DNA of 64,000 nucleotides from Ceratodon purpureus (taxonomy: Eukaryota > Streptophyta > Bryopsida > Pseudoditrichales > Ditrichaceae): contig CM026424.1 of NCBI GenBank assembly GCA_014871385.1, positions 11,503,115-11,567,114 of the forward strand, given 5' to 3'. The translations under genes and the position numbers were made by a program. Positions 5,230 to 29,387 of this stretch are shown here, piece by piece; within the stretch, counting starts at the first letter, position 1; the number at the start of each line of letters is the position of its first letter. The notes under the pieces were generated by a model, which searched no databases, was not told where the DNA came from, and was given only the letters and a program-made list of their open reading frames with translations.

Positions 5230-6391
5230 CATCTCAGTGAGTTAACACTTGAACGCTCAAGGAATCTTTGGGACACGTGAAGGGTCGTAAAGGCTCCCTG
5301 TGCAACACAACAGAAGTATTTGTCAAAGATTTTGAGGACAGTTTTGACAAATAGAACTCGCTTTCATTTGAAATCGTTTTGCAGAACTTTCTTTTGATTC
5401 CAGTATATTTTCGGCCAACTAGTATTGCAACAATTGAGTGCTGTAATGACTCGCTAGCGCTGTAGTAATTCCGCAAAACGCTACCCACTCTATTCCCGAA
5501 GGTACACCATAACAGTGATACACGAGTGTGAATATTATGAATTCACACAAATGGACCATGACATCACCCCAAAACAATCTACAACTTGTGATGATCTGTA
5601 CATAATACGATCTTCTTCAGCCTTTTTATAACATACACTCAATTCACTAGGAAACACGCAATGAAACAAAACTCACACCAGGGTGACACAACGCCATTGA
5701 AAACAGTTGAACACCTCACTTACCAATGTTACCACACACAGTGAAACACCGTCGCCTTCGATGCCGTAGAGCCTACACAAGTGCAGAGGCGACATGACAT
5801 ATGCTTGTAAATCCACTGTACAGACTTTCCAGAGTTAAAAACTAAACTGACGGACACCAAGTACGTGAGAACGAGAATCTAAATTTTTGATCCTGATTAC
5901 CAATTTATCTTTTCTACAGGAATTGATACAAGACGCAAGCAAAGTGACGTCTTGGGCGGTTCATCAGCAGTGGCATTCTGCAGATGCCCCTAATCAGAGG
6001 TGCACGCAGACAGAGAGGGACTCATCTAGAAACAGTTGTTGGCAGGGTGGCGTGTGCTGTGCGGGTAGGTTCAAGGATGTGCTATAACATACACTACTGT
6101 AGCTGTCGTGACGAGTGAAGCGCTTGTCATCATCTTCCGGGTGCAGGGGGCGTGGTTTTCTGGTTGGGTTGTGGCGAGAATGGTTGTACAGTGGCGGGTA
6201 TGGCCGGAGTTGGTCTGATGGGGGATATAGGAGCTCACAAGCAAGGGAGAGGGCGTGTGGGGGTGACAGGCGGAAGTGTGCTGTGAGATGGAGGCGATTG
6301 GAACTCTCGTGGTAGACGAGTGCGGAAGTTTGTGCTTGATGAGGTGGTGCTGAGACAGTCGCGTCTGGAGAAGCCATCTGGGAGGAGGAGG
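5230..6391. other. Intergenic region and presumed bHLH leader
   Basis: Contains the 3' end of the SINA-like gene and the promoter and leader of the bHLH gene. No frame resembles a known protein. Long minus-strand frames at 6000-6600 are shadows of the first bHLH exon and its GC-rich leader. Confidence 0.5.
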
Positions 6392-8481
6392 ATGATGATG
6401 ATGTCCTCGCCGTCCACTACGACGAAGTGGATGTCGTACCTGGCGGAGGGTTTGCTGGCGGAGGAGGACGTCCAGCCCTCCAATCCGTTCTTCTGGTGCA
6501 CCAGCCAGCACCCTGTTGAGCAGGTTGATTGCAGGTTTGTATGTTTGTATGTGCCATGGCCTCTCCCAATTTCCTCCTCCATTGCTGAGAAAGCTTCTAG
6601 CCACGAGGATCCGTTTTTTAGCTTTGAACCACACTCGTGTGGGTCGTCTCAGTTGTCGTCATTCTTCGCAGAAGCTTATGGCCGGTTTTGATCTCGTTCA
6701 CTAGTCTTCGTGTGCTGAGAGAAAATGTGCAGTACACGTTTTTGTAACAGGCTTAGGCATATGGGTATGACATTTGGAATGAGGAAACGGATTGTTTTGT
6801 CGATTGCCCGGAGAAGAGCTTTGTTCTACAATGTCATTCTTGCCCGCTGTAGACTGGGTTGCATGAGCTGGTGCTGTGCTGGTTCTTTGGGACTCGGTAA
6901 AGGCTTGCTTTGGTTTCAACCGGCTGGATTGTTGTTGAACCTACGCGCATTTAGATTTTGGTGCTTTGGGATGGTGATCAAGCCCGCTATGTGCATTTTG
7001 TCGCCTTCGTACTAAATAGTATCCATTCGTTTTCTTTATCACATCACTCCTTGTAAGTAGACTCGAATTTACAATTCAGACTTGGCTCCGTTTGCTGTCT
7101 ACTTTGGATGCTTGTGTTGTCTGTGGGGATGATGTACATCTCTGCGTTTTAGATCACAGTCTACGTTTCCTTTCACAAGAGGTCCGTGTAGTGAATTCTC
7201 GTAGTGTTTTCAGGATGTCTATGTTGCGCGTTGTGAGTGCTAAAGGGGATTTAGGGGGTTTCGTGATCGAGAGTGCTTTGTTAGTGCTCAAAAGCTATTG
7301 CAGGAAGGTGAGGTTACGTGGTCGGTTAGTGGGAGAAGAAAACATGCTTCATAGCTGATGAACTTTCGTTTCCTTTTGTGCAGTATCGACAATGAATGTT
7401 CGAAGGGAGAATCAGACGTGCCTGAGAAAAGTTGCTCCAGAAAAAGGTTTGTCCGTCGCTTATTAGTGCATAGTAGATTATTTGCTTGCTTAATACGGAG
7501 GCCAAGTTGACCTACACGCTGTTAAGGATCCATGTCGTGTCGCAGACACAAATCTTCACATGGTATGATTGTTTAGCTTTACGCGATGCTGATTGCAACT
7601 ATCCAATTTAGCAAAGATCCCATTTCTCCTTGCCGTGTTTTCCTCGGGGTTATTTTAACAAGGTGTCCTTTCAGGTCGCGAGAGGAGGCATGTAGCAGCG
7701 CTGGCAATAAAGCATGCCGAGAAAAGATGCGCCGTGATCGCCTCAATGATAGGTAAGCTCATGACTAGTCTTGCTGTTTGACATGACACGCTGGCTCCTA
7801 AACCTTCAGACTTTAACAATCTTGTCTGAACTGTGATCATTTCAGGTTCATGGAATTGAGTGCAGAATTAGAACCAGGCAGACCGCCGAAGACCGACAAA
7901 GCGACTATCCTGAGTGATGCTGTGCGTATCCTGACCCAGCTTCGTACCGAGGCTCAAGGGCTCCAAGAGTCCAATAACCAGCTACGAGAAACTATCAAGG
8001 AATTGAAGGTATATAGACTCTACTCTCTTGTCGTTTAGCGTTCGCTATCCTCTCTTTGCTTCTTTAAAATGATATAGAATAACTGCCCTCAGTAATTTAG
8101 TAATTTATTAGAAAGTGCACGATCCAGGATACTTGTGAGTTTTGAAGTGATGCTGAAAGTGAGAATAATCTTGTTACTTATATATTGGTTTGCACTCGTT
8201 CTTTACAGAATGAGAAAAATGAGTTACGTGAAGAGAAGACACGGCTGAAGGCGGATAAAGAAAGGTTAGAGCAGCAAGTTAAGGCACTGACTATTCCCAG
8301 CGGATATATGCCTCACCCTGCAGCTGTGCATGCAGCTGCTGCTTATGTAGCACAGACGCAAGCTGCATCAACCAAGGCTGCGCAAATGGCTGCGTACCCT
8401 GGCATGGCGATGTGGCAATGGATGCCACCTGCTGCTGTAGACACTTCACAGGATCACGTCTTGAGGCCTCCAGTGGCCTAG
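6392..8481 (+). CDS. ILR3: bHLH transcription factor, subgroup IVc (ILR3/bHLH105-like), 5 exons
   Basis: Exons 6392-6534, 7384-7446, 7675-7752, 7846-8008 and 8209-8481 join in phase to 239 aa, almost the length of Arabidopsis ILR3 (234). Exon 3 carries the basic region NKACREKMRRDRLNDRF; helix-loop-helix follows with PPKTDKATILSDAVRIL, then a leucine-zipper-like coiled coil (NEKNELREEKTRLKADKE) and the subgroup tail ending WQWMPPAAVDTSQDHVLRPPVA split around the WxW core, which is nearly invariant in IVc factors. Family members dimerise and control iron-deficiency genes; their tails in flowering plants are bound by BTS-type ligases. Four ATGs in a row open the frame at 6392; any may serve. 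A Gln/Ala-rich linker near residues 175-205 is typical. An AATAAA at 8704 is a candidate polyadenylation signal. Confidence 0.93.
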
Positions 8482-11378
8482 AGCAATTCAATTCAACCTC
8501 CCGGAGTATCTTTTTTTCCCAGCAGGAGGTCGATCTTCGTCGAACGAGGAGAGGTGGCAAGGGAAACCGTGAGTTTCAAGCTATGTGTATTTAGGACTCT
8601 GTGAGTACTACCATTTGGTGTATTACTCGATTAACCATGTGACCAAGTTTCCATCTCGCTACCTGTAGAGTCTCTATCTTTTACAATTGATTCGCTTCAA
8701 TTGAAATAAACTTAGCCTTCTTCTCACGGATCTCTTTCGGGAATGTACAGAAGTTTATCCTCCGCCTGGGATCTTGGTATTCCGATTTCGGTTTTCCAAT
8801 CCTTGAGCACGAGAGATACATAACTAGGTAGTAGGGCCCCTGAGCATGTAGGGATGTCAAAATTGGTGAAGGCTTGACCACGAGGACTTGCCATCACTAA
8901 TGATTCCAGGAGTAAAAAGTGTCCATCGAACCACCAGAGCCTGAACTGGACAGATTAGACATCCTTCTTGTAGTGAATATTGTGTACCACTTTCTTTGTG
9001 ATTAATTCTTTGCTGCAACATATACATCAGGAGTTAATTTCCCACGGGGAAAAATCTGGTTCTCGCAGTGTTACGCATGATTTTCCCATTTGTGAGTTTT
9101 TGGTGTGGTTTTTGCATATGCTAATTTTTTTCCATGATGTATGAGCTCATCTGTGCAGTATTTGGACTGGCTTTCTGTATTAACTGATGTATGTCGAGCA
9201 GAAATCTACGTAGTGACCATAAGCTTATCAAGGCTTGCTGAAGGATGATTGTTTTGGATCTGCCTTTTAACTTTAACGACAGCCGAGGAGATGTGTCTGT
9301 TGATTTCGCCCAAAGGTCTCAAAAGTTGCGTCCCTTTTACCCACCCCAATCCACATTCTTCCCATGAGCTCATTATGTGCAATGTGCTCAGAAGCAACCG
9401 CCCTAGGTAGTGCCACAGGCCCAACTACCGAGTTTTGTGTCCTGCACACTCTACCCATTGAATCTTTTGTCAGTGATCTTTGGGAGTCCCTATGAATACT
9501 ACAGTGCCTAACTTATAGCAAGGCCTGTAAAAGTCTACTGAAGCATAGCTTGTTGCTGTCTTGATTGGTGAACAAAACTTCTTTACTTGTAAGATGTGGG
9601 TACTGGGTACACTTTTTAACCTGGTAGCCGACCCAATGGCCTCGAGTCATCCATTGCAAGTTTGCAATCATCGACACCGTGACTAACAAATTAATCAGCA
9701 CACCGGCAGTCCTACAATTCGGAAACCTCGACCTCGCTTTGTTTGCTACTGAGGCTACAACACATCGTTGTAATAAAGCATATTCCATGTGGAGACTCGA
9801 CTGCGATTACTGTCGAAACCATGTGACAGTTCCAAGAAATATTACTAACATACTCCGTGGAGATAAAATTTAGATATCTTGAAACGAATCAACATGGTTT
9901 TCGAATATTCGGTAAGGTCATTTGGCGAATCAGTCGTGACACTACCACCCTTTTTGCACGGGAAAAAGCCTGGGAACAAGTCTGCACATAATCCAGGTCC
10001 GGATGATCCTGTGTCCTGTTCGCTAGACTGCCCGGTTGCTCGGCCGGCGTCCCGGACAAGTGCGGTCATCCTCATTTGCTCAAACCTTGAGCTCCTTCTT
10101 CTTCGTATTCTCCGCTACAGCATGCAGTACATGTCAACGCTTGCGCACCATTTCCGATCGAAACTTCATCTCTAGCAGGGACCCCACCTGCACCCTCCCC
10201 ATACCTGGGCATCTTGCTATCCATTGAAACACCAATTGTATCCTCTTCGGATATTACTATTACAATTACCTCTCCTGGAATCTATCTGTGCACAGTACTG
10301 TTCAGTACAGCACAGTACATCAACATGGAAATTGCGTCTACCTAGAGCATATTCACTCATGTCCGCACACATGAAGAACCTTTGAGATAAAAATATTCGG
10401 ACTTGGTTCTGTCTCTAGTAACACTTGAGATAATCAACTTAGTTATAAGTCGACATTCACTGTCCCAGTTCAACATCCACCATGACTCTCACTCACACAA
10501 GTGAACAATGACAAAATGGCTGACAACATGTAACTAAATGGAAATTTCACGACGCCTTCTTTTTCTGTCATTTCTCTTGGAAAGGAACTTGGCACAAACT
10601 TCAAGATGTCTTGTATCTTCACGTTCCAGTGCATAAGCTCGCACTGCCATACAGTACCGTAATTGCAAATGCTCCCGGGCTCATTTGCGAGAAAGTCTTT
10701 TACTAATGCTTGACTCCGGCGAAGTGGCCCACAGTTGCTTCATGATATGGATAAGTTAAAAGTTGCTTTGTAGCAGTAATTGCAGTGTACACAATCGTTA
10801 TTCCACCTGGGAGCATCGCCGGGAACCGTGGAATGATGTCGCGTTTTCAGGGCTAATTTCAAGTGGATGCCGTCTCGGTTTGCCCAAGTAGATGGCCCTT
10901 CTGATAACCAAGGTGCGAAGCATCAACAACAGTTTGGGGTCATGCATGACTCAGGGGAGTCGCTTGAATGGTCCCATATTGGGAAAGATCCAGGTGGCTT
11001 GACATGGTGTTCTGTGCCTTGCGGCACTGTCCAAGAGATCTTTCTCATCATTTGTCGAACCGGAAGTTCCTAGCTTCCCTCTTGAGGAGAATCGAGCCTT
11101 CAATTCATGACTAAACTGATGACTCGAAGGGTTAGCAGAAAACAGTCACTGCACACTTCTACTAACTTTGATCAAACAATCAAGCTATCCACAACATCCT
11201 CCATTAATTACATCTTAGATTCTTAATGTTGACCCAAGCCTGGTAACTGTAGAAATAGCACATTTTTAGAGATTGCGCCGTCTAGATAGCAGTCACCTTA
11301 AGTTAGCTGCAACTCCAATTTGGGATTAAGTTGGATTCCTTGGAGATTGTCAAACAGTGTACACTATATTTGACTATT
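8482..11378. other. Intergenic spacer, no supported gene
   Basis: Apart from the 3' untranslated end of the bHLH gene (to about 8.72 kb), I see no conserved coding frame. Open frames at 9.2-10.2 kb show no domain, no splice-compatible extension and random-looking composition. Short cagtac-type words cluster near 10,300-10,320. Confidence 0.5.
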
Positions 11379-12949: not shown

Positions 12950-12959
12950 CGTGGCATGG

Positions 12960-13027
12960 CAGGAATGCTATCTTGTGAGCGGTGAGCGGTGAGCAGTGAG
13001 CGGTGAGCACTAAATTTTCAATTTTTT
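12960..13027 (+). repeat. Left terminal inverted repeat
   Basis: Starts CAGGAATGCTATCTTG, then GTGAGCG/A heptamers, and ends in an A/T-rich segment (ctaaattttcaatttttt). It matches the inverse of 28,999-29,066 at 64 of 68 positions. Weak similarity continues inward: gacctatgaccgtggaa near 13,079 resembles the inverse of a stretch near 28,880. Confidence 0.9.
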
Positions 13028-13224
13028 GAATATTTATTTGATATTTTGAAATGATTTTGTATGACATGGCATATAGGGGACCTATGACCGTGGAAGGTGT
13101 TTTAGGGTACATTCCCAAAAGAATGGCTTCTAAATTGATAAATGTAGAAATTTACACCCAATTCATACCCGTATAAATTGTGATTATTTTTTCATATATC
13201 CTATCAATTCCACGCCATGAAGAC

Positions 13225-13545
13225 CAAGAGGAAAAAAAAAAAATTTAAAAAAAAAGAAAAAGAGAAAAAAATAAATAAATGAAAGAAAGAAAAAAGATTA
13301 AAAATAAATAATGAAAAGGAATATAGAGGGAAAAAAATTAAAAAATGAAGGAAAATAGGAAGAAAAGAAAGAAAAATAAATAAAACAACGAAAGAAGAAA
13401 AATAACAAATAAATAAATTAAATAAATAAAACATAAAACATAAAAAGAAATTAACAAAAAAAGATAAACAAAAAAAATGAATGAATACATATAGGAGAGA
13501 AAAAAGACAGATAAAAGAAAATTAAAACAAAATTAGGTGAAGAAC
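13225..13545. repeat. Purine-rich low-complexity tract
   Basis: About 320 bases of almost pure A and G with scattered T on the plus strand (runs such as gaaaaagagaaaaaaat). It lies just inside the left end of the transposon and after the methylase-like gene's 3' end. Its minus-strand open frame is all Phe, Leu and Ser and is not a gene. Confidence 0.85.
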
Positions 13546-13703
13546 GGATATACACAACGGCTTTTGCAGATGAACGTGGCTTCTAGTTTTTGGGATGAAT
13601 AATTTTTCATCCAAGTGTTGGATGACTGATTTAAAGGTGAAGAATTAATTAACTGATAGTTAACTACTCCTAAAACGGACTTGGGATTTGTGTTCGGAGG
13701 AGA

Positions 13704-13813
13704 CCCCAAGTAATTACTAGGGGTGCCCAAGTACCCCAAGTAATTACTACGGGTGCCCAAGTACCCCAAGTAATTACTACGAGTGCCCAAGTACCCCAAG
13801 TAATTACTATGGG
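13704..13813. repeat. 30-bp tandem repeat, about 3.7 copies
   Basis: The unit begins ccccaagtaattacta and ends gggtgcccaagta; copies start at 13,704, 13,734, 13,764 and 13,794 (partial). The copies differ at one or two positions. It is subterminal in the transposon, where binding sites for a transposase are often repeated. Confidence 0.9.
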
Positions 13814-14101
13814 TATTTGCATAATAGGGAAGGGAAAATTACATGAGAAAGGTTTAAAGAGAACCACATTTTATTGTGATGCTTCAAGCTGTAACCAAGG
13901 AAAGTTCAACTTCTAAAAATATTAGTACCATCTTTATAATTTAATCATGTATAAAATCAATTTAAAATATATGACTGGTAGAGAAATTCACACAGAAGTT
14001 GAGTAAAGTGAGGTTAAGGCAAAATATAAAATCCAAAGCCAAAGCTATCATATGATATATAAGTAGGGAAAACTTAACAATATAGAGTAAATATGCAATG
14101 A

Positions 14102-17100
14102 TCAAGTAGACATCTCGTCATCGCTACAAGTACCAATCCAACCATGATAAGAATCGCTATCACTAGATAATTCCACTCTGGCAACTTCTGCAGCTATGTC
14201 AAAATATATTTCAGCATCATGACAAATGCTATCACTGTCAGATGAAATAGATGGAGAAGGAGCAGCTAAATAAGCTTGAGCCTGCATCTCTGCATAATGT
14301 GGAAGCTCTAAAGGTCTAACTGGACTCCTTATCTTGCTAAGATGGCGCGAGATAATAGAGCCACCAATGTCATTCTTCAACGCTTTCTTCCGACTGCACA
14401 TGACAATTTCACAGTTTAATAAAGGTTAATCAAAACTTTTTTAAAAAAATAAACAAATGTCAAACGAATGTAGAGACTTACTTACAAGAACGCTTGGGGG
14501 CGGTCTTCCTCTCAGGCTCATCATCTGACTCAACCGGACGTTTCTTCTTCAATGAAGGCACAAGAATTGGAGTAGACTCAACCTCCTCCGTGCTTGGAAG
14601 AAGAGCAAACAACACCTGATTGTACAAGGTGGTGTCAGACTCAAAGCCTATGACATGACGCCGGAGACTCTTCGATGCTCGAATGGAAGCACCTGCACAG
14701 AAATTAGGGCTCCAAGACATAAGTAAAAATTATAAAATGAAATACCAAAAACTTTTAAACAAATAAAAAAAAACAAATTAATACCTGTAGAAGCTGTGAG
14801 ATCCATGACAATGTCATTCTCAACCGTGCACAAATCAATTAGAGCTTGCAAGAGGTTAGAAGTCTTCTCCCGTGCTCCTCTAAATGGCTCACCAGTCTCT
14901 GAATTAATTGTCAGAGAATCTGCAGTAATCAAATTAGTGCAATGTCCATCAGAGGAGAGCTTGATGCCTTGGGCACCAAGCTCAGCCCTATCATGAAACT
15001 GGAACTTAGACCTTGGGACATCCTCCTCCACATTCTCCATTTTGATGAAGCACTTGACCATAAAAGTCTTGTGCTGGCGTGGATAACGATCTGGAATAGT
15101 CAAAGGAAGACCATTGATTGCAAACCACTTGGCCTCCTCCTGGAAGTTAGCCCACTCTGCCCAGGAAATAAGCTCATTCAAAATGAACTTTGAATCAGGG
15201 TAAAATACAATCAAAGCTCCATCATCCTGCAGAAACTGCATAGCAAACTCAAGATGGGCCTTAATCCATGCAGACTCCATTTTCTTCCCTGCTGAAATCT
15301 TGGGGTGCTTGTTCCAGTAAGGAATCTCACCATCCTGCCCTAAACCTGGAACTGGCAAATCCTCTGGAACATCAAAAATGATAAGGTCCACAACAGCCTC
15401 AGCCTCTTCACCTCCAAAATTCCTAGCCTTGGTACCAAGATTCCCCTTGATCCAATGCTTGATCTTGCTCCAAATCTCAGGCTCATCCTCCTCCGATAAA
15501 GAAGTAAACAAATCCAAAATGCCCATAGGGCAATCATTGATGATCTCAACACTAGTGTCTACCTCATCCAACTGCGAGCATGGAATCGTGTAGATAGTCT
15601 GAGAAGGCATGGGGGTAGAAAAAAGAGGCACCTGAGGAGCTACAGGAACTATGGCAGCCTGCATGCTATTGCCTGAAGGAGAAATGCCAACATGAGACAT
15701 CAACTTCTCCGGCCCTTCCTTCAAAACTAACTTGGCCAACTCTCTGTTCCTTGCTGCCACTTCTTTCTTCAGCTTGACTTCCTGCTCCTTCTCTTTCTTC
15801 TTGTCCTCCTTCTCCTTCATCTTTGCCGCTTCCTTAGCCTTCCTCTCAGCCACCTTCTTCTTCTGTCTCTCAGAAAGGCCTGCATCATCACCAACCTGGG
15901 AGATATCCTCCTCCAAATCCACCATGCCTTCATCCAGAAGCTGCTTCATTAAATTCTCACAACCTGCTTTAAGACCTCTCTCCTCCCCAGGGCAACTATC
16001 ATTCTCCTTGAGCTCGAGGTACCAAGGACACTGAAGGAGATGAGGAGCTCCAAAATGCCTCCTCTGATACTCTGTAAAAATGCATTCACTGCTAGACACA
16101 TCCACCCACTTCTTAAAACGATGAGGAATATCCTTCTTGTCAATGGCACCCTTAACAACCAACTCCCTCCAGAAATACCTCAAGATAGCCCGCTTCATAG
16201 CATTCTCAGCACCAGCCTGGTTGAGAAAAGGCTCTTTCTTTGTATAAGTGCCAGCCTTAGGAAAAAAACTCTTAAATGCTTTCCCCCACAAGGTCAAGGA
16301 ATGAGACTCAATCCATGAGCCAATATCATCAACAGGGTTAGGTAAATCCTCTGTCCTCAAAACTATCATGTCCTCCTCTACAATCTTGTCATAACGAATG
16401 ACTGCCTCCTCCTCCAACTGAAAAAACAATCAATTGCAGAACTCAAAACCAAGTCATGACTTTTTATATGAAGAAGGCATATGATAAACTGTGAAAGGCA
16501 ACAAAATTATAAAGAATTGCAAGAGCTTAAGAAATGGAAATTTACCCCAGCCCAGAAGGCAGCTTGATCCACCCAAGGCCGGAGAGCTAAATCATAAGCT
16601 GGTTTTGGAGGAAAGTTGTACTCCTGCCGACTCTCCTTGCTCATGTTCCACCACTTCAACCACCTCTCCTTATGCTTGGCACTCACCCTAGCGGAGGCAA
16701 TGAGCTGCAATTTCTCAGGGGTCATTTCTGCATTTGTTTGAAAAATGTCAAAGTGGCGAATGATCTGCAAATAAGATTACAAATACACTTATATCAGATT
16801 CATTTAGATTGGTTAATTACGCAATTCACTCAAAGAAGTTCATTTACAAATAGATACATGCATTAAATTAAACATAAAAGGATACTTAAACATTACCTAT
16901 AACTAAACACTTTCATTGATATTCATATCTCTCATGCTAAATGACATTGAAGAAGTTAACAATAACCAAAAGCTTAGAGCATACGCTCGCCCGCTCTTGC
17001 TTCACGTGAACCTCGGCCACATAAATTACACATCCGCTGCCAGGCTCAATGCAGCACCAAGCTACTATGTAGCTCACACCGAGCTCGAAGTCTGATACAG

Positions 17101-20100
17101 CATTCAAGAATAAACAAGCTCTACAAACTGTTGGAGCACAACAACAGAAAAAAATGAAGCAAAAAGGCTCGGCGGAGGCACCCCTCGGATCCGAGAGGTG
17201 GATGGGGGTGACCTCGGCACTTGGAAATTTCGAATTGGCCCTTCCTAAAAAGATTCTCCCCAAGATCCTGCTCTCGGATCCGAGGACTGAATATTCCTCT
17301 TGGATGCCACCAAGCTCTGACGGAGGTAAAAACCCCGGGAGAGAATAGCTACGACTCAAACTTCCAGGAGAGAATAAGCTGCGCGACCATGATCATCCTC
17401 CTTCATTTATCATGACAAATAGCTATTTCGAAGCTGCTTCCCTATGATCTGTGTAGCTGCTACACATGCCATGAGCTACAACTCCCCGCTGCCAAGACGA
17501 TCTTCGCAGCAGCCTTCCATAAAACAGACAACGAATCGTAGAAACAGAAGCCACATACCACGAACACTCTACGAAGAAACGCAATTCAGCACGAAATGAA
17601 CCTTGCCCTCTACTTGACAGGAAGTGAAAAACAGGCCGGAAGATCAAGCCAATCACATGTAAGATCACATCTGAAAACCAACCAAGCGTCTATCGCTGAA
17701 ACACTTGTCATCAACACAAGATCAACACATTCGATGAGGTGAACCCAGCTTCACCAGCTGCTGGAGCACACTCACACATCGGAAACAAAATTCAGCATGG
17801 TGACCATTAAACTCAAATTGACTGCCAAGTCTCACCACACAGACGCGACCTCAATCAGACACTAGTTACTTCGTTTCAACACAGTTTTTGAATACCCACA
17901 TGGCCTGGTTGAAGCTTTCCGATGACTTAAACTATACAGCGAGGCCTCAGTTACAGGCATTATTGAAATTAGAATACTCTGCTTCTGTTAACTGAATTCT
18001 TGTATAGCATAAAAGAAGCCAAGATGTCTAGAACATGTACTGATCATCAAGCAGCGTTGCTCAGACTTTCTGATCCGTCTTATTTACTTATTAATTACAA
18101 CCTCACATCCACAAGATTCTCCTAGTGCCCTCAGAATACGGTTAGACAGTCACCTCTGCTAGAAAATGGTGCACGTTGTATTAGAGCTCTACGACCGCAA
18201 TTATGAATCAAAACATTGAGAAATCAAACTCACTTTGCCTGGTTGGGAATATCACGTTCGCCTCGATTTTGAGAGGTGAAAATAATAGAAGCGCCACCAC
18301 CACTACACACAGGCTCTGTCGCTGAAACAACAGCCATCCCTTGACGCCCAACTCACGCCCTATCGGAGTAATCGTTCCATGCTCCGGAACTTCCAAGCGA
18401 ACCGTGAAATCAATTCCCATTTTGAGACAGATTCTAAAAGGAATTTAAATATTAAAAAAAGAATCTATAAAAGATTCACCTCTCGGATCCGAGAGCGCGG
18501 AAGGACTGGGAGCTTCAAACTGTTAACACAAGACACCGGCTTCCGCTGACTGCTGCAAGGTACGAGCGAGATACCAAGTACTACTTTTCAGTTCAACTTT
18601 GCAACATACCGACAACTTCAGAATAAACCATTTACCGTTGAAATTGAACACCACAAAAATCCTCAAGCCCAACATACAAGGTCAAGACCTACTAAAAGCT
18701 GCGACACTAACCCTTTCATCACACCCTCTAAAACATGTTATGTTTAATACTGAGACTCGAAAAGTCGGTGCAAGAGCTACCTCGCCCCACACCCTGGCGC
18801 TCTACGTACATAAAGCATTAACTTGCTAAAGATCTCAACTACGTCCACACTTTTCGACTGACATCTGTACAATGCTTAGGCAATGGCGATGTGATACTGC
18901 ATGATAATCAGGTGCTCATCTTGCAGTGTCTACGATCCTTTAAACGTCCTGCAGTAAAACAATGAGATTATCCTTGTTGGTCGACAACTCAGTCGGCATG
19001 CCCAGCATCGAGGCTTGTCTCACAACCTTAAGTTGAAGAGCAACTGAATCAAAGGTATGATCATTTCCAGGTTAAGTCTCCCAATTGCAATTTATATATC
19101 GATAGCTATGTCGGTCGCAACGGTGCTCGAAGCTGTAGAGAATGGCATCCTTGCCTCTGTCCCCGCCGACTACATCATCCTATCACTGGTTCATACATAC
19201 AAAGCAATGTCCCATGCCATCGCCGAGGCACCCCTCGGATCCGAGGGATGGACTAGGGGTGTCCTCGGCATTCAAAAAAAAAGGAATTTTAATTTTTTTT
19301 AAAAAAGAATCTACAAAAGATTCACCTCTCGGATCCGAGAACGCAGAATGAGTTCAAACGACTGGAACAAAATTCGGAACAAAATAAATTCGGAACAGAA
19401 GCTCCAACTGTATCATGTGTGAAACAGTATCATGTGTGGAGCCTGCCTTGAGCTTGAGAGCTAGCTCCATGCCCACGAACACCAATGAAACACGAAATAC
19501 GAAACACCACACCTCTCACCTTCCTTCGTAACTCATCACAAGTGCACAACACAAGAGCCACATCACAACTGAACCGACGACCCACCCACCCTGAACTGTT
19601 GTTAATTTTCCAACAGTATCAAAAGCTCCAGCAATATCAAAAGCTGAAGCAACATCATGAAAAAAAGCAATGTCCAATGCCACCGCCGAGGCACCCCTCG
19701 GATCCGAGGGATGGACCAGGGGTGTCCTCGGCATTCAAAAAAATGAATTTAAATTTAAATAACACCCTCGTTGCCTGCCTCAAGCAGGCAGCATGCACTC
19801 AATAACAGCCCACTCAAGCTGAGCATCACCTCAAACACACGAACTGTGTAAAAAAAAAACGAGCTCTTACAGTTGCTAGTGAGACATAACACAAAAAAGC
19901 AATGTGACATGGGACCACCGGGGCACCCCTCGGATCCGAGATATGGACCAGGGGTGTCCTCGGCAGTTGAAAAAAAAATAATTTTCAACCAAAAAAAACG
20001 AATTTCAACCTCCCTCCCAATAGTCAAGAGATTGAGCAGCAAAGAAGACCTTAAACAATTCAAACAAACTTTGAAATAAAGATACTGGGGACTAAGAAAA

Positions 20101-23100
20101 TGACGTACTTCTTTTAAAAAACCTTCTCCATTGGCTGGGTTGGCTATGGCGATAAAACGATCCAAATAGGATGAAAGCGATTTCTTCTTCGCTTCTACTG
20201 CATTAGCAGCGATTGCCTTCAATTCAGATGGACTACCTGGCCTATCTTCTCCAGTGCCTGTTATGAGTGTGTCTTTACAGCCCCGAATAGCCTCCTCCTG
20301 GGCCGCTGAAATCTCCCTCTTCAATAACAAAAAACACTTGTGAATTGTTTAGAACTCAAAATATTTTTGAATTGACAGTGTTTGTATTGTAGTAAATTCT
20401 TACCTCGTATAAGAAGTTGATAAACGCATCATTTGTAAGGTGATACCATTTTCTGTTCTTCATCCGTGCCCTCTAAAAAATGCTGGCTTGTAAATCCTCC
20501 TCTTTCACAAGACCCTTGAGTTGGTCAAAATCCAGCAAACCAAGTTGTTGGACACGCTTCACCTCATGTGTCCAATGTTGTGCAACGTGGTCTACTTGAT
20601 TTTTTCTGAATCGCAACAAATTGAAGATTTCCCACAGAAATTGGTGAGTCAAAATCAAACAAATACGAACAAGGAAGTTCTTAGACATAGTACTGAACAA
20701 AGTGATGACATGTCAGAGCTAAAATCACACAATTAAATATAATGGCGTGACTCCAGCTTCATGCTGGAGCTCACTGTTAAATTAAATTGTGTCACAAAAG
20801 CACCAGCCAAGGCACCCCTCGGATCCGAGAGGGGGACCAGGGGTGCTGGGGCTAATTACTTTTATGCAGACAATCGTAAAGTTAAGAGAGCCTCAGGTCG
20901 AGGCAGCTGCTTGTAACCAGCAGAGCAGTTCCCATAAGTGAGCCATAGAGCTCGACTAAAGCTCTAACAATATAAGAAAAATAAAATCTATGTGACTCAG
21001 GTTGAAGTTGGAGCTCAGTATGTACAATTAAACTGCAACATAAAAGCACCAGCATAATGGAGTAGCTATCTGATACGTGCTAGAGCAGGTCGCATACATG
21101 AGCCATAGAGCTTGATTAGAGTCCAAATCACATAAATAAAGAGCAAATCATCTCATTAAAATGATGAAATGTATTACGTACTTATTCCAGTCGGTCATGG
21201 CATGCAAAAGCATATTGCAGTTTGCAGGGGTGACATTGATAATAACCGATCGAACAGCAACATGAAATGACGAATCATGCTTCCGGATGGTGTTGATAAT
21301 CTCTGACCAAGCAATGTGGCGATGGTTTCCATCCCACACGTAGAAGTACTTGTTAGAATACTTCTGGAAGGCTGGATTTTCTGACAATCTTCTCTCAAAT
21401 TCTTCATCCTCCTTCCGCCATAGCTCAGACCACGATGCTCTGTCAGCTTCAGAAACACTAGATTCCTCCATCCTAAAACTCCTGAGAGAGAGATAGAAGC
21501 ATGATGACGCCCTCTTATATCCACGTGAGAACTCCGCCTTCAGCTTTTGAATATCAGTCTTCAAAGGCTCTCTGACGTCCTTCATTGGGATCATCCTGCA
21601 GAGAGGTACGTCAATCTCAATACCTGGCATGTCTAGAGCGTTTTCTAAACAAACATGTGAATCTCCCATCACCGATCTGCGGAGCTGGTCCTCGACTGCA
21701 GCCATGCCCCCGTCGTCATGGTCCATGGTGCTTGAGGGACTCTGGACGATCTGAATTTGTGCTTCACCGCTCATCTGCATGCAATAACCACCCCAAAATT
21801 AAGACCTAATCATTGAGTGTAATACTGAGACTCTGAGTTACGAGATTTGTAGAGAAGCTGCAACACGTAAGGATTATGACCACCCATTTAATTGAGAACA
21901 TTCATATTTCAGCTTGGCGAGAAACTTGAGCACCAGAAATTGAACTGCAGTTTTTGAATAAGCTGGATTACACTCACCTCTGACATGATCGAGATTCGAG
22001 AGGACTTTGGTGACAAACTTCGCGGCACTATCGTCAACTCTTGCTCGGCGATCTCAAACCTTACCGCTGCCTCATACACTGATGTGCCTGTATCATTCAC
22101 CTGCGGAAGAAACGATGCACTTAGTAGAATTACAGCCTTTGGAATAAACAAATTGTGGTCATACCTGAATTCAGCTACATCTATCGAACAATTGAAGAGT
22201 TCACCAAAATCCTCAGGCAATTCTTCTAATCCGGTGAACCACAAGGCTAATACTTCCAACATCTAGAGCCCACAAAGAGAAGATAACTTTTGAAGCCGAT
22301 TGCACATAGTGAGGTTCGATTGCACATAGCCGAATCTTAGGAGCTATTCTCTGTCCGAGGCTCTGTCCTTGAATCCAAAATTTCTGACTGATTCTTCCTG
22401 GACTATTTACACTTGATCCAGCTCTAAAATCCTGCTAATGTGATTCAGCCAAGAGAAACCAAGTAACGCCTTTTCTATTTTGAAATAAAATCATCATTAT
22501 CGGCATATACGAAGCTGATCCTGTCGGTTCGTCCTCCTCCCTCAACCAGCAGGATAGACGTCGTTAAACAACATCATCAACAATCAACAAAATCTGATAA
22601 ACTACACATTCTTATCACCCCCTCCACTCCTGTCGTGACATGTTCTGCACCAAAATCTCTGAGGTGTGGTTCTTAAAATTGTTATTAGATCGCTTGCAAG
22701 ATTAGCAAATTCGTTCTTTCGGTTCCCATTTCGTAGAGCCCTGAAATTAATTCGGAGCTACATTTAAAAGAAAATTAGTTCTTTCGCTTACCTTTACTGA
22801 GAGGCTATCAGGACTTGGCAGCTCCGGAAGCGATATCCCGAGGTTCGAGTTCACGCAAGGGAAGTCCAACTGGTCTTCAACCGCGAAATCTGCCTGCAAG
22901 TTTCCACAGAAATCGAGCTGAAGTTAATATGGGACCATGGGTTGTCTGAGGTTACTATGCTGCAGGCACTAAAGAATCACAAACTAGAGATGTTCCGTTC
23001 TGTTCCCTTGATCACAAGCACTTGTTTAGCCTAAACACCACTAGAGCAGCACACCTTTGACTTGCTTGGTATACGGGTTTGCTTAAAGGCAATTAAAAAA

Positions 23101-24235
23101 AGTTTCAGAAATTAAATGAGACCAACATCAAGTAATCCGAATTTTCCACGCCCATCTGCAACCTTTTCAAACTAATCGACCTAGGGTGAATCGTTTTTTC
23201 ACGCACAACCACGAATTCATGTACAGCAAGCACCACCAATTTTTAAATCATCAACATCTGCTTAAAGGCAGCCCTAATGTCTCAATACAGTAGGAGCCAA
23301 TCTGATGGATCTCACCTCTTCGATCTCGTTGGAATTCGGTGCTGAGCTCAGCAGCTCCGGGAGCTGATCGGAATGGACTGCTTCTTCAACCTGCGAGCAT
23401 TGACCGAGAGTATCCACACAATTATTGTAAGGAACTTCCAGTTACCAAGGTGCTAGGGTTTTGTAGGGAATGTATTCGCAGGAAGCAGGAGCCTTGGTAG
23501 AAATCTGCTAGGATATGTAGGCGAGGTGATAAGGGACGATGCGCTAATCAACAGCTGCAAAGGTAGAAGCCTGCATCAGAGCAACGTACCTGCTCAGCAG
23601 GAAGAATCTGCGACGGGAGCTCCGCCGGCGTCTCGCTCGAACCAGATGGAACAGCGTCTCCGGACACAGAGACTGAACTTCGAAGCGAGACCCCTGTACA
23701 CACTCGCGGCCCCTGCCCCGAGAGACCCTACTTGAGCAAATTGATGGTCCTACGTAATTAGTCAACTCTCCCACTCCAGTCGATTCATAAATTACTTGTT
23801 TGTGATACCAACGACCTGACTAATGTGATTTCTCTTAGTACGTGTAATTCTTATGCCTAAAATTCTGTAACTAAACCTATACATTGATAAAAAACTTTAC
23901 TATGGAGAGAGTTTGGGCGGGCTAGATATATTGAAATAGTTAGACTACACATGAAAAAAGAAAATTACTGATGATGAATTAAAGAGCGAGAAAAGAGAGA
24001 AGTCTTCTACCTGACATATAGAAGCCAATTCTTTGATTTTTAGGCTGTGACATTCATCTGATAAGCAATCCACTTCTGCAATACGGCTTAAAGCATCCTT
24101 CTCCTTTCTTCTCCTCTGGGCTGTCCTCTGCTTCGCATTACCCCAATGAGAACCTCGCCTTCTCCCTCTACCTCTAGTCGTACATGACCTAGGAGCCCTA
24201 GGCACTCTTGCACTCGGTACTTCCTCTTCCCTCAT
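14102..24235 (-). CDS. Transposon-borne ParB-like/DNA-methylase-like protein, 12 exons, one in-frame stop
   Basis: Exons on the minus strand: 24235-24011, 23712-23590, 23390-23316, 22893-22792, 22262-21978, 21774-21182, 20605-20404, 20318-20109, 16764-16546, 16417-14785, 14692-14482, 14393-14102. Phases fit throughout (about 1,390 codons). The N-terminus is Arg-rich (RGRGRRRGSHWGNAKQ). Around residues 330-440 a ParB/Srx-like region has IPMKDVREPL and YVWDGNHRHIAW. A charged coiled coil lies near 860-910. Residues about 1,020-1,260 have the order of a beta-class (IV-X-I) DNA methylase: DLIIFDVPEDLP, then LQDDGALIVFY, RQHKTFMVKCFIK, EKTSNLLQALIDL, DIVMDLTASTG, RRHVIGFESD. Motif IV, normally (D/S)PP(Y/F/W), reads DVPE, so catalysis is doubtful. 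The tail is Ser/Asp-rich. A TAG at 20,473-20,475 interrupts exon 7. ParB-methylase fusions are known from bacteria and phage; function here is unknown. Confidence 0.75.
17168..20846. repeat. Dispersed hairpins built on CTCGGATCCGAG
   Basis: The 12-bp palindrome occurs at 17183, 17273, 18482, 19234, 19328, 19697, 19929 and 20818 (start positions), with a ninth copy at 28708. At 19,222-19,269 and 19,685-19,732 it sits inside a 48-bp imperfect hairpin with arms gccgaggcacccct and aggggtgtcctcggc; 17,168-17,217, 19,914-19,964 and 20,804-20,846 are weaker copies. Copies at 18,482 and 19,328 share the left flank agattcacct. All but two of these eight lie in the 3.3-kb intron between exons 8 and 9 of the methylase-like gene or right beside it. 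Confidence 0.85.
20740..21130. repeat. Degenerate tandem duplication in an intron
   Basis: A unit of roughly 230 bp is repeated: the word cacaaaagcaccagc near 20,792 recurs as cataaaagcaccagc near 21,040, and tgagccatagagct occurs near 20,940 and 21,100. It lies in the intron between exons 6 and 7 of the methylase-like gene. One copy contains the CTCGGATCCGAG palindrome, the other does not. Confidence 0.65.
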
Positions 24236-24870
24236 GTGTCTCACTAACGCACTCCTATCAACAGAAGACTAACTAAGAAGATTGTCATGAACCAAGTAGT
24301 GTCTACTTATGCATCACTCTAGACTTTGTCTATCCCCTCTTTATATTTATATAGTGCCAACACAGTGCTGTGTAATGCTCGTGTCAGTATTTTAGTTAAT
24401 TGTAATATTAGTAAAAAATTGAATTGATTAGTACAGATCATCTTGTGAATACAAAGATGATCTGTAAAGATTATGACATGATCTTCAGTTTATTTCTTGG
24501 ACACCACTAATTGCCTTAAGGTGACCTCTACATTGACGGAATTTCCGGTTTGACATTTAGACTCTAAACATATCCTCAATTAAAGTAAAGGTCTAAACAT
24601 CGTGTTGAAATTGACGGCTAATTGATAAAATTGTAATTGCTTATGATGTCATGGTTGGCGTTTACAGCCGCCAAAATATTTAGTATGTCAGAGATATTCT
24701 GAAATAAAAATGACTTGTACAGGTCATAGTCTTTCCGCCATTTCATGATATTATTTTTATAATCATGTTGATTGGCATTCCACACCGTCAACTTAAGACT
24801 ATATAATCTCTACAACTTCTTAGAGACACAATTCATTATCTTCTACTCTTCCTAACCCACCTCTATTGCG
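24236..24870. promoter_or_regulatory. Divergent promoter of the two transposon genes
   Basis: On the plus strand ctatataa at 24,799-24,806 is about 65 bases before the transposase ATG at 24,871. On the minus strand ctatataaatataaag (24,339-24,355 in plus coordinates) is about 105 bases before the methylase-like gene's ATG at 24,235. About 440 bp separate the two TATA boxes, so both genes probably share regulatory sequence. Confidence 0.6.
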
Positions 24871-27800
24871 ATGCATGATTGTACTTCTTCTATCTTCTAT
24901 AGTACACTTAGAATGGCCTCTCTACGGTCTCATGATGGAGGTATTCCATTTGTGATGTCTGTAGGTCCAGACAATAAGGTAGTTGTGGAGGAGCGATTAC
25001 TTAGCCTCAGGTTTGTGTTTAGAGCTGGGACTATTTACGTGGAAGAAGAGGTCTTTGATGATAATGGTGAGATTCTTGAGTGTGTATTTCAAGTGAAGGA
25101 TAGTACACCTGACGGTTACGTCTGGACTCTTAGCACTGGAACTTTCAAGGTATACGGGTTATCAGATGCACAGATGTCTGAGTCTACTGTTCTCTTGACC
25201 CCTCCTCCTTCCACGTCAACAGTTCAAGTTCCTGGTCTAGCATCTGTCAAAATTGAACCCAGTGACAACTCAGTACATTTGTTGAGTGACTCGGATGATG
25301 ACACTCACACTGAGATAAAGCTAGGAGACAATAGGTCAAATCCATTTCAGAGTCGTGGATCCCAAGACTCAGGACGTCCATCTCGACAGGGTAGTCGTTC
25401 TAGTATGTCTGCGTCATTGTCTACAGGGCGTCCACCTATTCACCCTGCTTCCAAAAAAAACAAGAGCATTATGTTTTCCATCAGAATGACAGCATCAAGA
25501 AGGGGCTCCCGATCAGAATTATCGAAGATTGATTTCGACACTTGAACATGAACAAGTGAAGTATTTACCGCCACTTTACGATGGAGACAAGATTTTCGAG
25601 TTGCCCCCTGTACCAGAGGGAGTTCCAAATCCATTCGGAGGTGGAATGGACGGAATGAGCAAGCAGTATGATGGCCACACCTGGTGCAAGACCATGACCA
25701 CAAACATCAAAAACGAGTATGGCCTCACATATCGTAAGTCATCCTGTACCGGACACTTACAATGTCCCAACATGAGTTGTGATTACATTTGCCGGAATAA
25801 TGGGAGGGTAAATAGCATTGAATGGTCAGGCGTAGCTTTAGTACCTTTCACTGTGGGAGGCTCCCCCACAGAGAAATCTACTTTAGCATGCAAAGTATGT
25901 CAGACACCTCCTACTTGTCTAGCATTGTGCGACGCTAGGATCTATCATGTGTCCTCTCAAGACAATGATATGACCCGTGCGGCGATTCATTTAGGACGTC
26001 ATAGACATCCTGTATCTCAAGGCAGATGTCAAGACTGTATGGATATCATGTTTGACTGCATAGCTAAGGAGGTTCAGAGGACACCTAACGCCAAAAACTC
26101 TGCTATCGTTTTAGCGGCCAGCAAGCAGTACCTTGCCAATGCTCTGATCCGTCCTACTGCAGGAGGCAGTCATCTTCGGGGAGCATCTATGGATGCTGTA
26201 ATGGACCAATTTGAGACTCTTTCTTCACCGAATATACGGAATTTTGTTTTTGGATCGAAGAGGTTTTTCCGTCAAGGGAGAGGAGTCACAGATAGCATCC
26301 TGGAGCTGAAGGATTACTCGAACTTTGATTTCATCCACCGTAATCAGTTCCCTGGACAGAATGAAGGCAAGGTTTTTCTGTTCAAGATGTCCACTGATCG
26401 TCCAGGAAGCGGTGTGGATTTTGTGAAGCGCATGCAGGCTGGAGGTGATCTTCAAGACTGCTGGATCATGTTCGACCATGTTAGGCGTGTAGCTGACTGG
26501 ACCACTATGGCATGCCACGTTTATGACAGTAAGTATTGTAAAGTTATGACAATTGCCCTTTGTGACATGCAATCCGAAGATGCTGCTGCTCAGGAGTTAT
26601 TTTGGCTCCAGCTCAATGAAGTTATGCGCAAGAACGGCCTTGAAAATACTAATTTCAAAGGATTCATGGCTGACAATGCTGGAGCCAACTGGCACGCTGT
26701 TCGGAAGGTGTATGGGAACGGAGACCCCAATCATCCTATGGAAGAACGGGAGCGCACTTGTCTTTTCCACTGGACAAAGTGCCTTCAGAGGGCTACTTCT
26801 CGGAATATCTTCCCAAGCTTTCAAGACCAACACAAAGCTTTGTGCAAAGTATGGAAGGATGCAAAGACCCAGGAGGAAGCAGAAGCGCAGTACAATGTCA
26901 TCCGCGGGTGGTGGCTTTCGTCAGGCGCTACAACTGAAGAAGGAAGGCGTCATCTAAATGATTGGATGGTTTTCTGGCACTATCGGTATAGACAATGGGG
27001 AGGGTCGATGCAGCTTGTAAGTTCATTCATCTCTAAACCTTCCATCAAGTATTAGTATACCTTGCTTTTTATCTAAAATCCTGAAAATGACATGATTTAT
27101 TTTATTGTATTTCCCAGGATCTTACCCTTGACGAGAGAGCCGACATGCCTTCCTGCAACCTTGCGGAAACCGTGCATAACAGATGGCTTCAACAATCAGG
27201 AAACACGATGACCTGTTTGTACGAGGCAACAGTGGATGATATGATCCGCGCATTCATGCAGATCACAAGTTACCGGTCTTGGCTGAAGGGAGGAAAGGGC
27301 GGTAAAGGTCCGGACAGAGCAGAACTTCGTTTACGCCACGCTCAACGCTCTGGTGACCCCAAGTTGATTGCTGAGGCAGTTAATTCCTACCCAGGAGCCG
27401 AGGATTTACTGACGAAGAAAGGAGGCTTGGAAGGTGCAGAGATCTTTGGATCTACGAAATGGAAGTTAGATTTGCCGCCTGGTTCGAGTCATGACTCGCA
27501 TCGCTATGATACACTGAATTATTCCATTCCTCGTGATGGCACGAGATCCACCAGAGCACGCATTGAGGAGGCTCTTTCTCAACCTGACTCCGGTGTTGAA
27601 CACACTACTTCAGTGCAGGAGACAGATTGCGACCCGTCCAAGTGGCACATTGCTAGACTGTCCGGCAAGTCTAACCGAAAATGCCAAGCAATGCAGGCTC
27701 ATACAAATGAGAAGTGCGATACCCGAGTGCGCCGAGGTACACATGGTAAGCCTGCTCCTACCTATGTAGGGCTGAAGAAGGAGTTCAGAACCGATCGCCA

Positions 27801-28488
27801 TATTTCTACTGACTTCTGGTTTTGCGCCGATGACATTAATAGATGTGTGAAGGGCACAAAGAAGTCGTTTGTGATTGACTGGCCATCTATCCCGCAGACT
27901 TGGCCTGTAAAAAGGGGCACGAATTTGACCATCAAAGAGATTCTGGCTCTTGAAGAGGCCGGCTTCCAACTCCAACAACGTGGAGTACTATCACCTCGTC
28001 GTCAGTTCCAGGTTTCTGCTAATATGCCGCTTCCAAGGAGTCATTTCCCGGTTCCTGTCGATCCGGATACACACCCGACGACTCAAAACGGATATGCCAT
28101 CAGGAGAAGTTCTGACGCTCCTACCTCCGACCACCGCAACAAGTGGAGCAGTGCAGGTCTCATGAACAACTATTGGATTACAAATGTCACATCGATTCCA
28201 TATCCAGGATTTGGCTGCGTCATCTCCTTGAAGAGTCCAAGTGAAACGATATATTGTATCACCATCACGGACTTCCCTGGATGTACTTGCCCCGACTTCA
28301 TGAAAATGACTTCTGAAACCCTTGGCAAAAGAGGCCAGTGGAAGTACTGCAAACATGTTTATTATATCTTCCGTTATCTATGTGAGATGGATTACAAGGT
28401 TGATACTTTTATGCACGCCCCTAGCTTCAGCTTCAACGAAGTTATGCGTGTTCTGGAGATGGCTAAAGTTGCTGAACCGCTTCAATAG
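24871..28488 (+). CDS. Mutator-like transposase with SWIM zinc finger, 3 exons
   Basis: Exons 24871-25402, 25500-27016 and 27118-28488 join to 1,139 aa. The first intron (97 bp) is inferred: without it the frame ends at 25,545; donor gtatgt and acceptor atcaag restore the frame as SS|KGAPDQNYRRL. The second intron has clear gtaagt and ttcccag signals. An N-terminal globular region and a Ser-rich linker with VKIEPSD and VHLLSDSDDD precede a Cys/His finger (CTGHLQCPNMSCDY, then HLGRHRHP) resembling WRKY-GCM1/FLYWCH types of MULEs. The DDE core has CWIMFDHVRR, FKGFMADNAGANW and CLFHWTKC. The C-terminal SWIM motif is CTCPDF with KYCKH. The protein should cut and rejoin the element's ends. The frame is otherwise intact, so it may be active. 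Confidence 0.87.
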
Positions 28489-28692
28489 TTTCTTATCGTT
28501 AAACTGTGAAATTGAGTGACCAATACAGCTATAGTATACATTATATGAATAGCGGAATTGATTTGTTTTGGATTTATGATGGATTTGGAATCCGCAAAAC
28601 ATAAATAAAGGTCACTATTTATTTATATATTGTCCACCTCTCGAATGTGTTCGCGGTAAAATGAAGACCAAGAAAAAAATTCCTACATGGTT

Positions 28693-28734
28693 AGGGAATA
28701 TTCACCTCTCGGATCCGAGAGGTGAATATTCCCT
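28693..28734. repeat. Perfect 42-bp palindrome
   Basis: The sequence reads identically on both strands: arms agggaatattcacctctcgg and its complement meet at the centre of the CTCGGATCCGAG core (28,708-28,719). It is about 200 bp after the transposase stop and 270 bp inside the right end of the transposon. Confidence 0.95.
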
Positions 28735-28998
28735 CATACCTTGGAAATATTCTTCTCAAGAATCCGTGACCACAAAAATGCGATAAAATTTTTTTTAAAA
28801 AAAAATGGATATACATTCTGGATGTGACTTATGCAGTTAGATATTCCCTCCAACCATTCACATTTGATGGATTCCACGGTTATAGGGTCTACTTTATTTG
28901 CATTCATGTATTCCAACGAAATGTCCTAAACTGCTCATCATTGTTTGATTGCTTTCAAAAAAATTCAAAAATTCAAAAAAAAATTCAAATTTTCACCT

Positions 28999-29066
28999 AA
29001 AAAATTGAAAATTTAGTGCTCACCGCTCACTGCTCACTGCTCACCGCTCACAAGATAGCGTCGCTG
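28999..29066 (-). repeat. Right terminal inverted repeat
   Basis: Read on the minus strand it starts CAGCGACGCTATCTTG followed by the same heptamer array and A/T-rich inner end as the left repeat. It lies about 510 bp beyond the transposase stop codon. Confidence 0.9.
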
Positions 29067-29387
29067 CGTGGCATGGCACTGCTAGTGTACATTTCAACTA
29101 TCTTCGCGTTGATTAAATCATAATCTATTGAAACGTCAATTCATTGTTGACTAACTAGACATGTAACTATCAATTGGTGTCACCTACCCCCTGAGCATGT
29201 AAAAAGATGCAGAGTCTTCATGTTTTGTGGTCAAAACTACAATCCTTTCTCTTCCCACTTCATTCCTCTGATCTCCGCCCTCCTTTTTGGCTATACTTTT
29301 ATTTTATTTAGTTTTATTTCTATTTGCTCTCAAACCATTTCAGACTATATTTACATATTAAACCATTCTTTTACATAACAACAAGCA

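Follow-up and report, generated by a model that had tools for sequence, protein, structure and literature searches.

ParB-Like and Methyltransferase-Like Exons and Clade-Specific Palindromes in a Family of MULE-Like Transposons from the Moss Ceratodon purpureus

Here we describe a MULE-like DNA transposon of 16,105 bp in the moss Ceratodon purpureus and the lineage of elements to which it belongs. The element lies at positions 12962-29066 of a stretch of 64,000 nucleotides (contig CM026424.1, positions 11,503,115 to 11,567,114 of the forward strand), which was analysed as a whole and is called the window below. Besides a transposase-like gene, the elements of this lineage carry exons for a predicted ParB/Srx-fold domain and for a domain with the predicted fold of permuted beta-class amino-methyltransferases (MTase). 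The MTase sequences form two clades, and each clade has its own palindrome in its noncoding DNA, which is a new observation. We give about even chances to the proposal that an element-encoded protein recognises the palindromes of its own lineage, probably countering silencing or assisting transposition.

Results

Clade-specific palindromes in noncoding DNA

The palindrome of clade 1, the clade of the window element, is CTCGGATCCGAG. It occurs nine times in the window, always inside the element, with no match in the 47.9 kb outside, none in shuffles and none with one mismatch. The sites, found by pattern search and given without strand, are as follows:

17184-17195, CTCGGATCCGAG, intron
17273-17284, CTCGGATCCGAG, intron
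18482-18493, CTCGGATCCGAG, intron
19234-19245, CTCGGATCCGAG, intron
19328-19339, CTCGGATCCGAG, intron
19697-19708, CTCGGATCCGAG, intron
19929-19940, CTCGGATCCGAG, intron
20818-20829, CTCGGATCCGAG, intron adjoining the ParB exon
28708-28719, CTCGGATCCGAG, after the transposase stop and before the right end, in the middle of a longer palindrome

Across the genome (362 Mb in 151 contigs) CTCGGATCCGAG has 1,882 matches, against 8 for the reversed control pattern. Fifty of these places, all on C1, were listed. A ParB exon, out of 150 in the list, is no more than 10 kb away from 23 of them, and the DNA this close to a ParB exon makes up 0.94% of that C1 stretch. Six clusters have no listed ParB exon; both of the two that were fetched hold MTase pieces of the family (68-73% identical), and these two 10-kb pieces, in which no ParB match was found, retain 8 and 7 sites. 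The exact 12-mer occurs 55 times in the 29 other ParB loci, which together make up 104 kb and are all closely related to the window's subfamily; 28 of the 29 have it. Of the 18 copies in the C13 element, most sit in tandem arrays (147 bp and 86 bp), and a locus on C8 (L046) has 30 copies of the inner 10-bp core TCGGATCCGA in 10 kb, 10 as CTCGGATCCGAG and 11 as TTCGGATCCGAA, all outside the matched exons, in several different tandem repeats and at other sites. Three unlike tandem arrays of this locus, at 8219-9868, 6189-6956 and 1613-2801 (150, 96 and 237 bp), share one palindrome core. At C1:8534353-8538704, 16 clade-1 palindromes follow one another at ~255-bp spacing or its multiples, ~1 kb from the ParB exon at C1:8532863.

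The clade-2 palindrome, GTTCKGYRCMGAAC (GTTC-KGYRCM-GAAC), was derived from repeats in one clade-2 element on C1, where 15 occur in 13.2 kb. The full motif has 984 matches genome-wide, against 11 for the control. A looser 12-bp form, with a mean of 0.055 and a maximum of 2 in 200 in a Markov control, is found once in the window element, nowhere in the window outside it, once in the C13 element and not in the C5 copy; the clade-2 loci L004 and L006 have one each and L005 and L007 two each. The 50 listed places of GTTCKGYRCMGAAC form four C1 clusters of 13, 3, 15 and 19 sites. Three of them, spanning 19-21 kb each, surround MTase matches at C1:835556, C1:16297306 and C1:19940466; the last is the source element of the motif, and the other two read as clade 2 from their own sequence (L005, L047). 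Outside the source element, 28 of the 31 listed sites are at most 13.4 kb from the L005 or L047 MTase match, and the remaining three-site cluster adjoins transposase pieces of the lineage (L048; 43% over 100 aa, E 9e-21); thus all 31 belong to the lineage. The clade-1 palindrome was not found in clade-2 DNA (13.2 kb plus eight loci of 26 kb, overlapping in L006).

Many of the palindromes examined are embedded in tandem arrays or in inverted repeats of greater length. Some copies therefore arose by duplication, and this speaks against a role in recognition. A hairpin-forming or nested foldback repeat spreading passively inside the elements, unrelated to the ParB-MTase protein, would account for cores placed centrally in longer inverted repeats (mean arm self-complementarity 0.5 versus ~0.25 expected) and in tandem arrays. 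We nevertheless regard such an origin as very unlikely. The arms and repeat units vary widely whereas the 12-bp core is constant: among 108 sites with 83 different flanks the core is exact in 97, has one mismatch in 9 and two in 2, an exactness that is partly by construction since the sites were picked by core. Moreover, the two clades have two different palindromes.

The placement of the sites also bears on an alternative in which the palindromes are internal sites where the ParB-MTase protein, or the transposase, builds a synaptic complex or nicks DNA, any link to silencing being secondary. One site lies near an element end (28708), the clade-2 sites are spread over the 19-21 kb clusters, and the two 10-kb pieces with MTase remnants keep their sites without a ParB match. 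Maize mudrB, a second open reading frame, is described as apparently needed for integration (PMC6446971), and non-specific DNA nicking by the ParB domain is reported for a ParB-methylase of Bacillus cereus (PMC5512222). Yet the exon model places eight of the nine window sites within ParB-MTase introns, distant from the ends, and we consider a role as transposition cofactor unlikely.

The ParB-MTase gene

The gene is on the minus strand, divergent from the transposase-like gene on the plus strand. In transcriptional order its exons in the window are:

24012-24235, minus strand, probable first coding exon; 74% identical in L039
21183-21777, minus strand, ParB/Srx-fold exon with DGNHR; from the predicted fold and conservation among relatives
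20404-20605, minus strand, exon following the ParB exon (QHWTHEVKRVQQ...), with an in-frame TAG at 20473-20475; from comparison with other copies, splice limits read from the sequence
20110-20318, minus strand, exon REISAAQEEAIRG..., limits approximate; 74% identical in L039 and 46% in L041
16546-16764, minus strand, exon IIRHFDIFQTNAEMTPEKLQ...; 75% identical in L040, 64% in L041 and 43% in L001
14783-16417, minus strand, large exon with a conserved N-terminal region, a lysine/glutamate-rich coiled coil and the beta-class amino-MTase domain, D-V-P-E at motif IV
14480-14692, minus strand, exon completing the MTase domain (ASIRASKSLRRHVIGFESD), donor limit approximate; within 13416-16779, which has 84% DNA identity to the C5 copy
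14102-14394, minus strand, probable last exon and stop; open frame within the same 84% identical stretch, 13416-16779

Sequence-only searches of the ParB exon gave nothing significant, whereas the predicted structure model of the exon has the ParB/Srx fold. The phosphate-binding motif of GxHR type is present as DGNHR, with N and H in all 60 sequences and R in 53. The ratio of nonsynonymous to synonymous substitution rates (dN/dS, Nei-Gojobori) has a median of 0.16 with quartiles 0.13-0.20 over 297 of 351 pairs (27 of 32 sequences, five with internal stops being dropped, as were 54 pairs with low or saturated dS). Judged by this ratio, the ParB exon is under purifying selection.

The permuted beta-class MTase fold is seen in the predicted model of P0003, which is 67% identical to the window over the MTase domain, the mean pLDDT (predicted local distance difference test) being only 57. 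A protein search with the MTase returned seven and then eight relatives. The MTase exon gave only coiled-coil or low-complexity matches among PDB sequences, and no match in a megablast search against phages; tblastn with the L001 exon gave 104 weak phage records (E<=0.01), of which the best 10 cover at most 59% of the query. Between the window and L040, dN is 0.082 and dS 0.403 for the MTase exon, and 0.037 and 0.263 for the MTase domain, which again indicates purifying selection. The median dN/dS of the clade-2 MTase exon is 0.075, a ratio obtained for only 4 of 21 pairs.

The preliminary description of this DNA, made from the sequence alone, had placed DGNHR in a ParB/Srx-like setting and recognised landmarks of a beta-class MTase further on; the predicted models agree with it for both segments, giving a ParB/Srx fold and a Rossmann-type beta-class MTase fold. 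Chance resemblance of these motifs was rejected by the folds, the selection and the depth of the family. Bacterial contamination was also rejected: the gene has introns and lies in a 22.8-Mb contig of the 362-Mb genome, and a relative, P0008, is annotated in Ceratodon purpureus.

Motif IV and the two MTase clades

Motif IV in clade 1 reads D[VI]PE in 12 of 12 sequences (all 10 aligned sequences, L041 in a different frame of its interrupted copy, and L046) and not [DNS]PP[YFW], which tells against the methylase activity implied by the preliminary description. The longer clade-1 motif, D-[VI]-P-E-x-LPVP, is placed where strand 337-343 of P0003 ends. In clade 2, from the same genome, motif IV is D[QT]P[FY] (DQPY, DQPF or DTPF) in 8 of 8: L001-L005, L008, L043 (the element of L006) and L047, with L007 left out and L004 and L005 nearly identical. 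Clade 2 retains the aromatic residue that clade 1 lacks. The NLPY/NIPY motif of KsgA/Erm enzymes resembles the clade-2 form. Motif I is mostly DLxASTG in both clades, with the clade-1 variants DITASTG, DLTTTTG and DLTTSTG, and its first glycine is substituted in both.

Methylation is doubtful in the window's clade because its motif IV is D[VI]PE rather than [DNS]PP[YFW]. This affects the alternative of active self-modification, in which the protein would methylate its own palindromes (N4-methylcytosine, 4mC, or N6-methyladenine, 6mA) and so mark or mask element DNA. Such activity would fit the predicted beta-class fold, for which palindromic targets are suitable, and the D[QT]P[FY] kept by clade 2; published accounts further describe a rotifer N4-MTase that puts 4mC on transposons and DNA methyltransferase (DNMT) genes, captured by retrotransposons, that methylate de novo (PMC8885841, PMC5890265). 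However, a change of SPPY to APPA abolished the activity of the rotifer enzyme (PMC8885841), clade 1 uniformly has D[VI]PE, and the motif I glycine is substituted in both clades. We hold self-modification to be improbable.

Other copies of the element

The ParB exon, connecting exons, MTase exon and divergent transposase-like gene recur in a C5 copy (L039/L040; ParB 75% identical to the window), a C13 copy (L041/L042; ParB 47%) and a clade-2 copy on C1 (L043 and L006; ParB 42%, and the N-terminal part of the transposase only 32%). L046 on C8 (ParB 44%), known from the ParB-MTase side only, also has both ParB and MTase exons. Order and strand of the two exons agree in the window and these four copies; here, therefore, they do not represent separate host genes, a reading left unsupported by five copies that carry both domains in one element. 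From exon order we infer that the two form one polypeptide.

Comparison of the window element (12962-29066) with the C5 copy shows mosaic divergence: DNA identity is 90-95% in the transposase half, 84% at the MTase end and 73% in the ParB exon. Because identity is so uneven, it hints that the middle of the element, with the ParB part, was exchanged between element subfamilies. Elsewhere, MTase-gene pieces of the family are duplicated head to head, in inverted orientation, at L045 4261-7322, with seven palindromes between or beside the arms.

Element ends and transposase-like gene

The limits of the element were set at 12962-29066 because its inverted ends sit flush with a 12-bp direct repeat. 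These and the features of the transposase-like gene are:

12962-29066, no strand, MULE-like DNA transposon of 16,105 bp; inverted ends with a 60/61-bp identical core, flush with the 12-bp direct repeat
12950-12961, no strand, left target-site duplication (TSD), CGTGGCATGGCA; 12-bp direct repeat flush with the end
29067-29078, no strand, right TSD, CGTGGCATGGCA; 12-bp direct repeat flush with the end
12967-13027, no strand, core of the left terminal inverted repeat (TIR), GTGAGC-type repeats; from an inverted-repeat search
28999-29059, no strand, core of the right TIR; same end present in the C5 copy L039
24856-25545, plus strand, N-terminal part of the transposase-like gene; conserved in L039 and L042
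25490-27055, plus strand, MULE-like core (MADNAGANWHAVRK...CLFHW), read by eye; 67% identical in L042, no Pfam match
27091-28488, plus strand, C-terminal part, SWIM-type CxC(n)CxH recognised by eye; 70% identical in L042, no Pfam match

The inverted ends span 12959-13047 and 28979-29067. A match of at least 12 bp was found in 0 of ~2000 random pairs of window stretches; the TSD is slightly longer than the ~8-11 bp of MULEs. TIRs are also present in the C13 copy, where a search for a TSD found none, and the C5 copy shows one end only within the fetched DNA. The transposase-like gene as a whole extends over 24856-28488 on the plus strand, its SWIM-like, CxxH and MULE-like motifs being recognised by eye; a Pfam search (E<=1) of the two larger parts gave no match, and the first part only a sub-threshold Cohesin (E 0.039). 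The location inside a transposon, proposed earlier, is borne out by TIRs, TSD, the adjacent transposase-like gene and the many copies.

A short tandem repeat, AGTAATTACTTGGGGTACTTGGGCACC, lies close to the left end of the element (window 13690-13830). Far from it, at 59128-59614, two inverted repeats of 143 nt, separated by 201 nt and 95% complementary, possibly form a small hairpin or an element resembling miniature inverted-repeat transposable elements.

Discussion

If the protein recognises the palindrome, two related lineages would be expected each to have a ParB-MTase gene and a noncoding palindrome of their own, as is seen here. In the proposed mechanism, the second gene of this MULE-like lineage would encode a ParB/Srx-fold domain followed by a coiled coil and a permuted beta-class amino-MTase fold. 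The protein would bind palindromes scattered in the noncoding DNA of its own element, centred on TCGGATCCGA in clade 1 and of the form GTTC-KGYRCM-GAAC in clade 2, and binding would let it recognise related elements. By analogy with VANC of VANDAL elements, the bound protein would most probably keep related elements unsilenced or aid transposition. The clade-1 MTase domain is probably a DNA-binding or S-adenosylmethionine-sensing scaffold, and that of clade 2 may still methylate.

Several further observations weigh against this proposal. The C5 copy has only two CTCGGATCCGAG sites, 12 of the 50 listed sites (four clusters) are not tied to an element, and no clade-2 palindrome was found in the clade-2 loci L001, L002, L003 and L008 (3.2-3.8 kb each). 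Searches that filter by length found no protein that covers both domains, and P0008, the annotated relative, stops shortly after the ParB exon. No DNA-binding helix-turn-helix (HTH) was identified, the exons between ParB and MTase lying outside the models, and the transposase or a host factor could bind the palindromes instead. Finally, a premature stop separates the two domains in the window copy, whose exon after ParB reads ...LQASIF and then TAG (20473-20475). When 24 other copies were scanned at this position, 23 matched, and 22 of them show a sense codon, including L038, where another stop precedes it; L034 is rearranged and L016 gave no match. With an in-frame TAG where 22 other copies have a sense codon, the window copy is probably inactive, unless splicing bypasses the stop.

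Two suggestions of the preliminary description thus stand in part; a third, capture of a prokaryotic-type modification gene, remains a putative origin. Joining in one protein is favoured by the common exon order and strand in five copies and disfavoured by P0008 and by the want of a spanning protein. As to whether the protein may bind or mark element DNA, binding has gained from clade-specific palindromes concentrated in elements, and marking has lost from motif IV of clade 1 and the in-frame stop.

A wider reading, which we entertain only tentatively, sees in the system a nuclear equivalent of ParB-parS or of modification-site recognition. Each of two sister lineages would encode a ParB-MTase protein with a palindromic code of its own, arrayed in many element copies (1,882 and 984 sites). 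The protein would load on these sites, possibly gated by nucleoside triphosphate in the manner of ParB, and determine chromatin or modification state within its lineage, clade 2 writing an amino-methyl mark and clade 1 binding only.

If recognition of the palindromes by the element's own protein is true, a eukaryotic transposon would recognise itself via prokaryotic-type folds and a specific palindrome, using protein domains unrelated to VANC. It would yield two orthogonal candidate protein-site pairs, point to where amino-methyl marks in plants might come from, and possibly explain how the family spread through a moss genome. With palindromes this precise, the hypothesis can be tested directly.

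The closest parallel is VANDAL21/Hiun with its VANC protein in Arabidopsis, likewise of MULE type with an extra gene besides the transposase and family-specific, often tandem, motif arrays in noncoding DNA (PMC5735166). VANC21 is described as binding YAGTATTAY, most copies of which are in introns or other noncoding DNA of the VANC21 element itself and are gained and lost via tandem repeats (PMC5735166). Such family-specific arrays in noncoding element DNA are found in the moss elements too, and, as in the VANC target motifs, the flanks and repeat units of the moss palindromes vary. In contrast, the domains given for VANC are DUF1985 and DUF287 (PMC5735166), with no ParB or MTase among them, and YAGTATTAY is non-palindromic; in moss, anti-silencing is a putative role. 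DUF1985 and DUF287 are absent from the Pfam listings of the element's proteins (E<=1, one at 0.1), no direct comparison with VANC having been made.

ParB-parS partition systems share the ParB/Srx fold and clustered palindromic sites. The moss element differs in that no ParA was noticed (no search was aimed at it), no HTH was identified, and its motif is GNHR, the canonical ParB motif being of GERR type. The METTL3-METTL14 and MTA1-MTA9 pairs, structural matches of the model, are likewise eukaryotic MTase-fold proteins, and pseudo-MTase partners are known in pairs of this type; the moss clades, in contrast, sit in separate elements. There is reportedly work on N4-methylcytosine in liverwort sperm. 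Nothing that we recognised in the openly accessible literature searched describes the element, or any plant ParB-MTase.

Bacterial and phage ParB-methylase fusions, such as Bce_0392 of Bacillus cereus, also join a ParB-like domain to an amino-MTase (PMC5512222), whereas the moss gene is in a eukaryotic transposon, has several conserved exons between the domains and, in clade 1, a degenerate motif IV. In bdelloid rotifers a captured beta-class N4-MTase, N4CMT, deposits 4mC on transposons; as described, it differs in that it belongs to the host and has a chromodomain as well as SPPY (PMC8885841). Finally, the DNMT retrotransposons of dinoflagellates and charophytes are, like the moss elements with their MTase-like domain, eukaryotic transposons and carry a DNA methyltransferase, but their enzymes are C5 methyltransferases of host origin carried by retrotransposons (PMC5890265).

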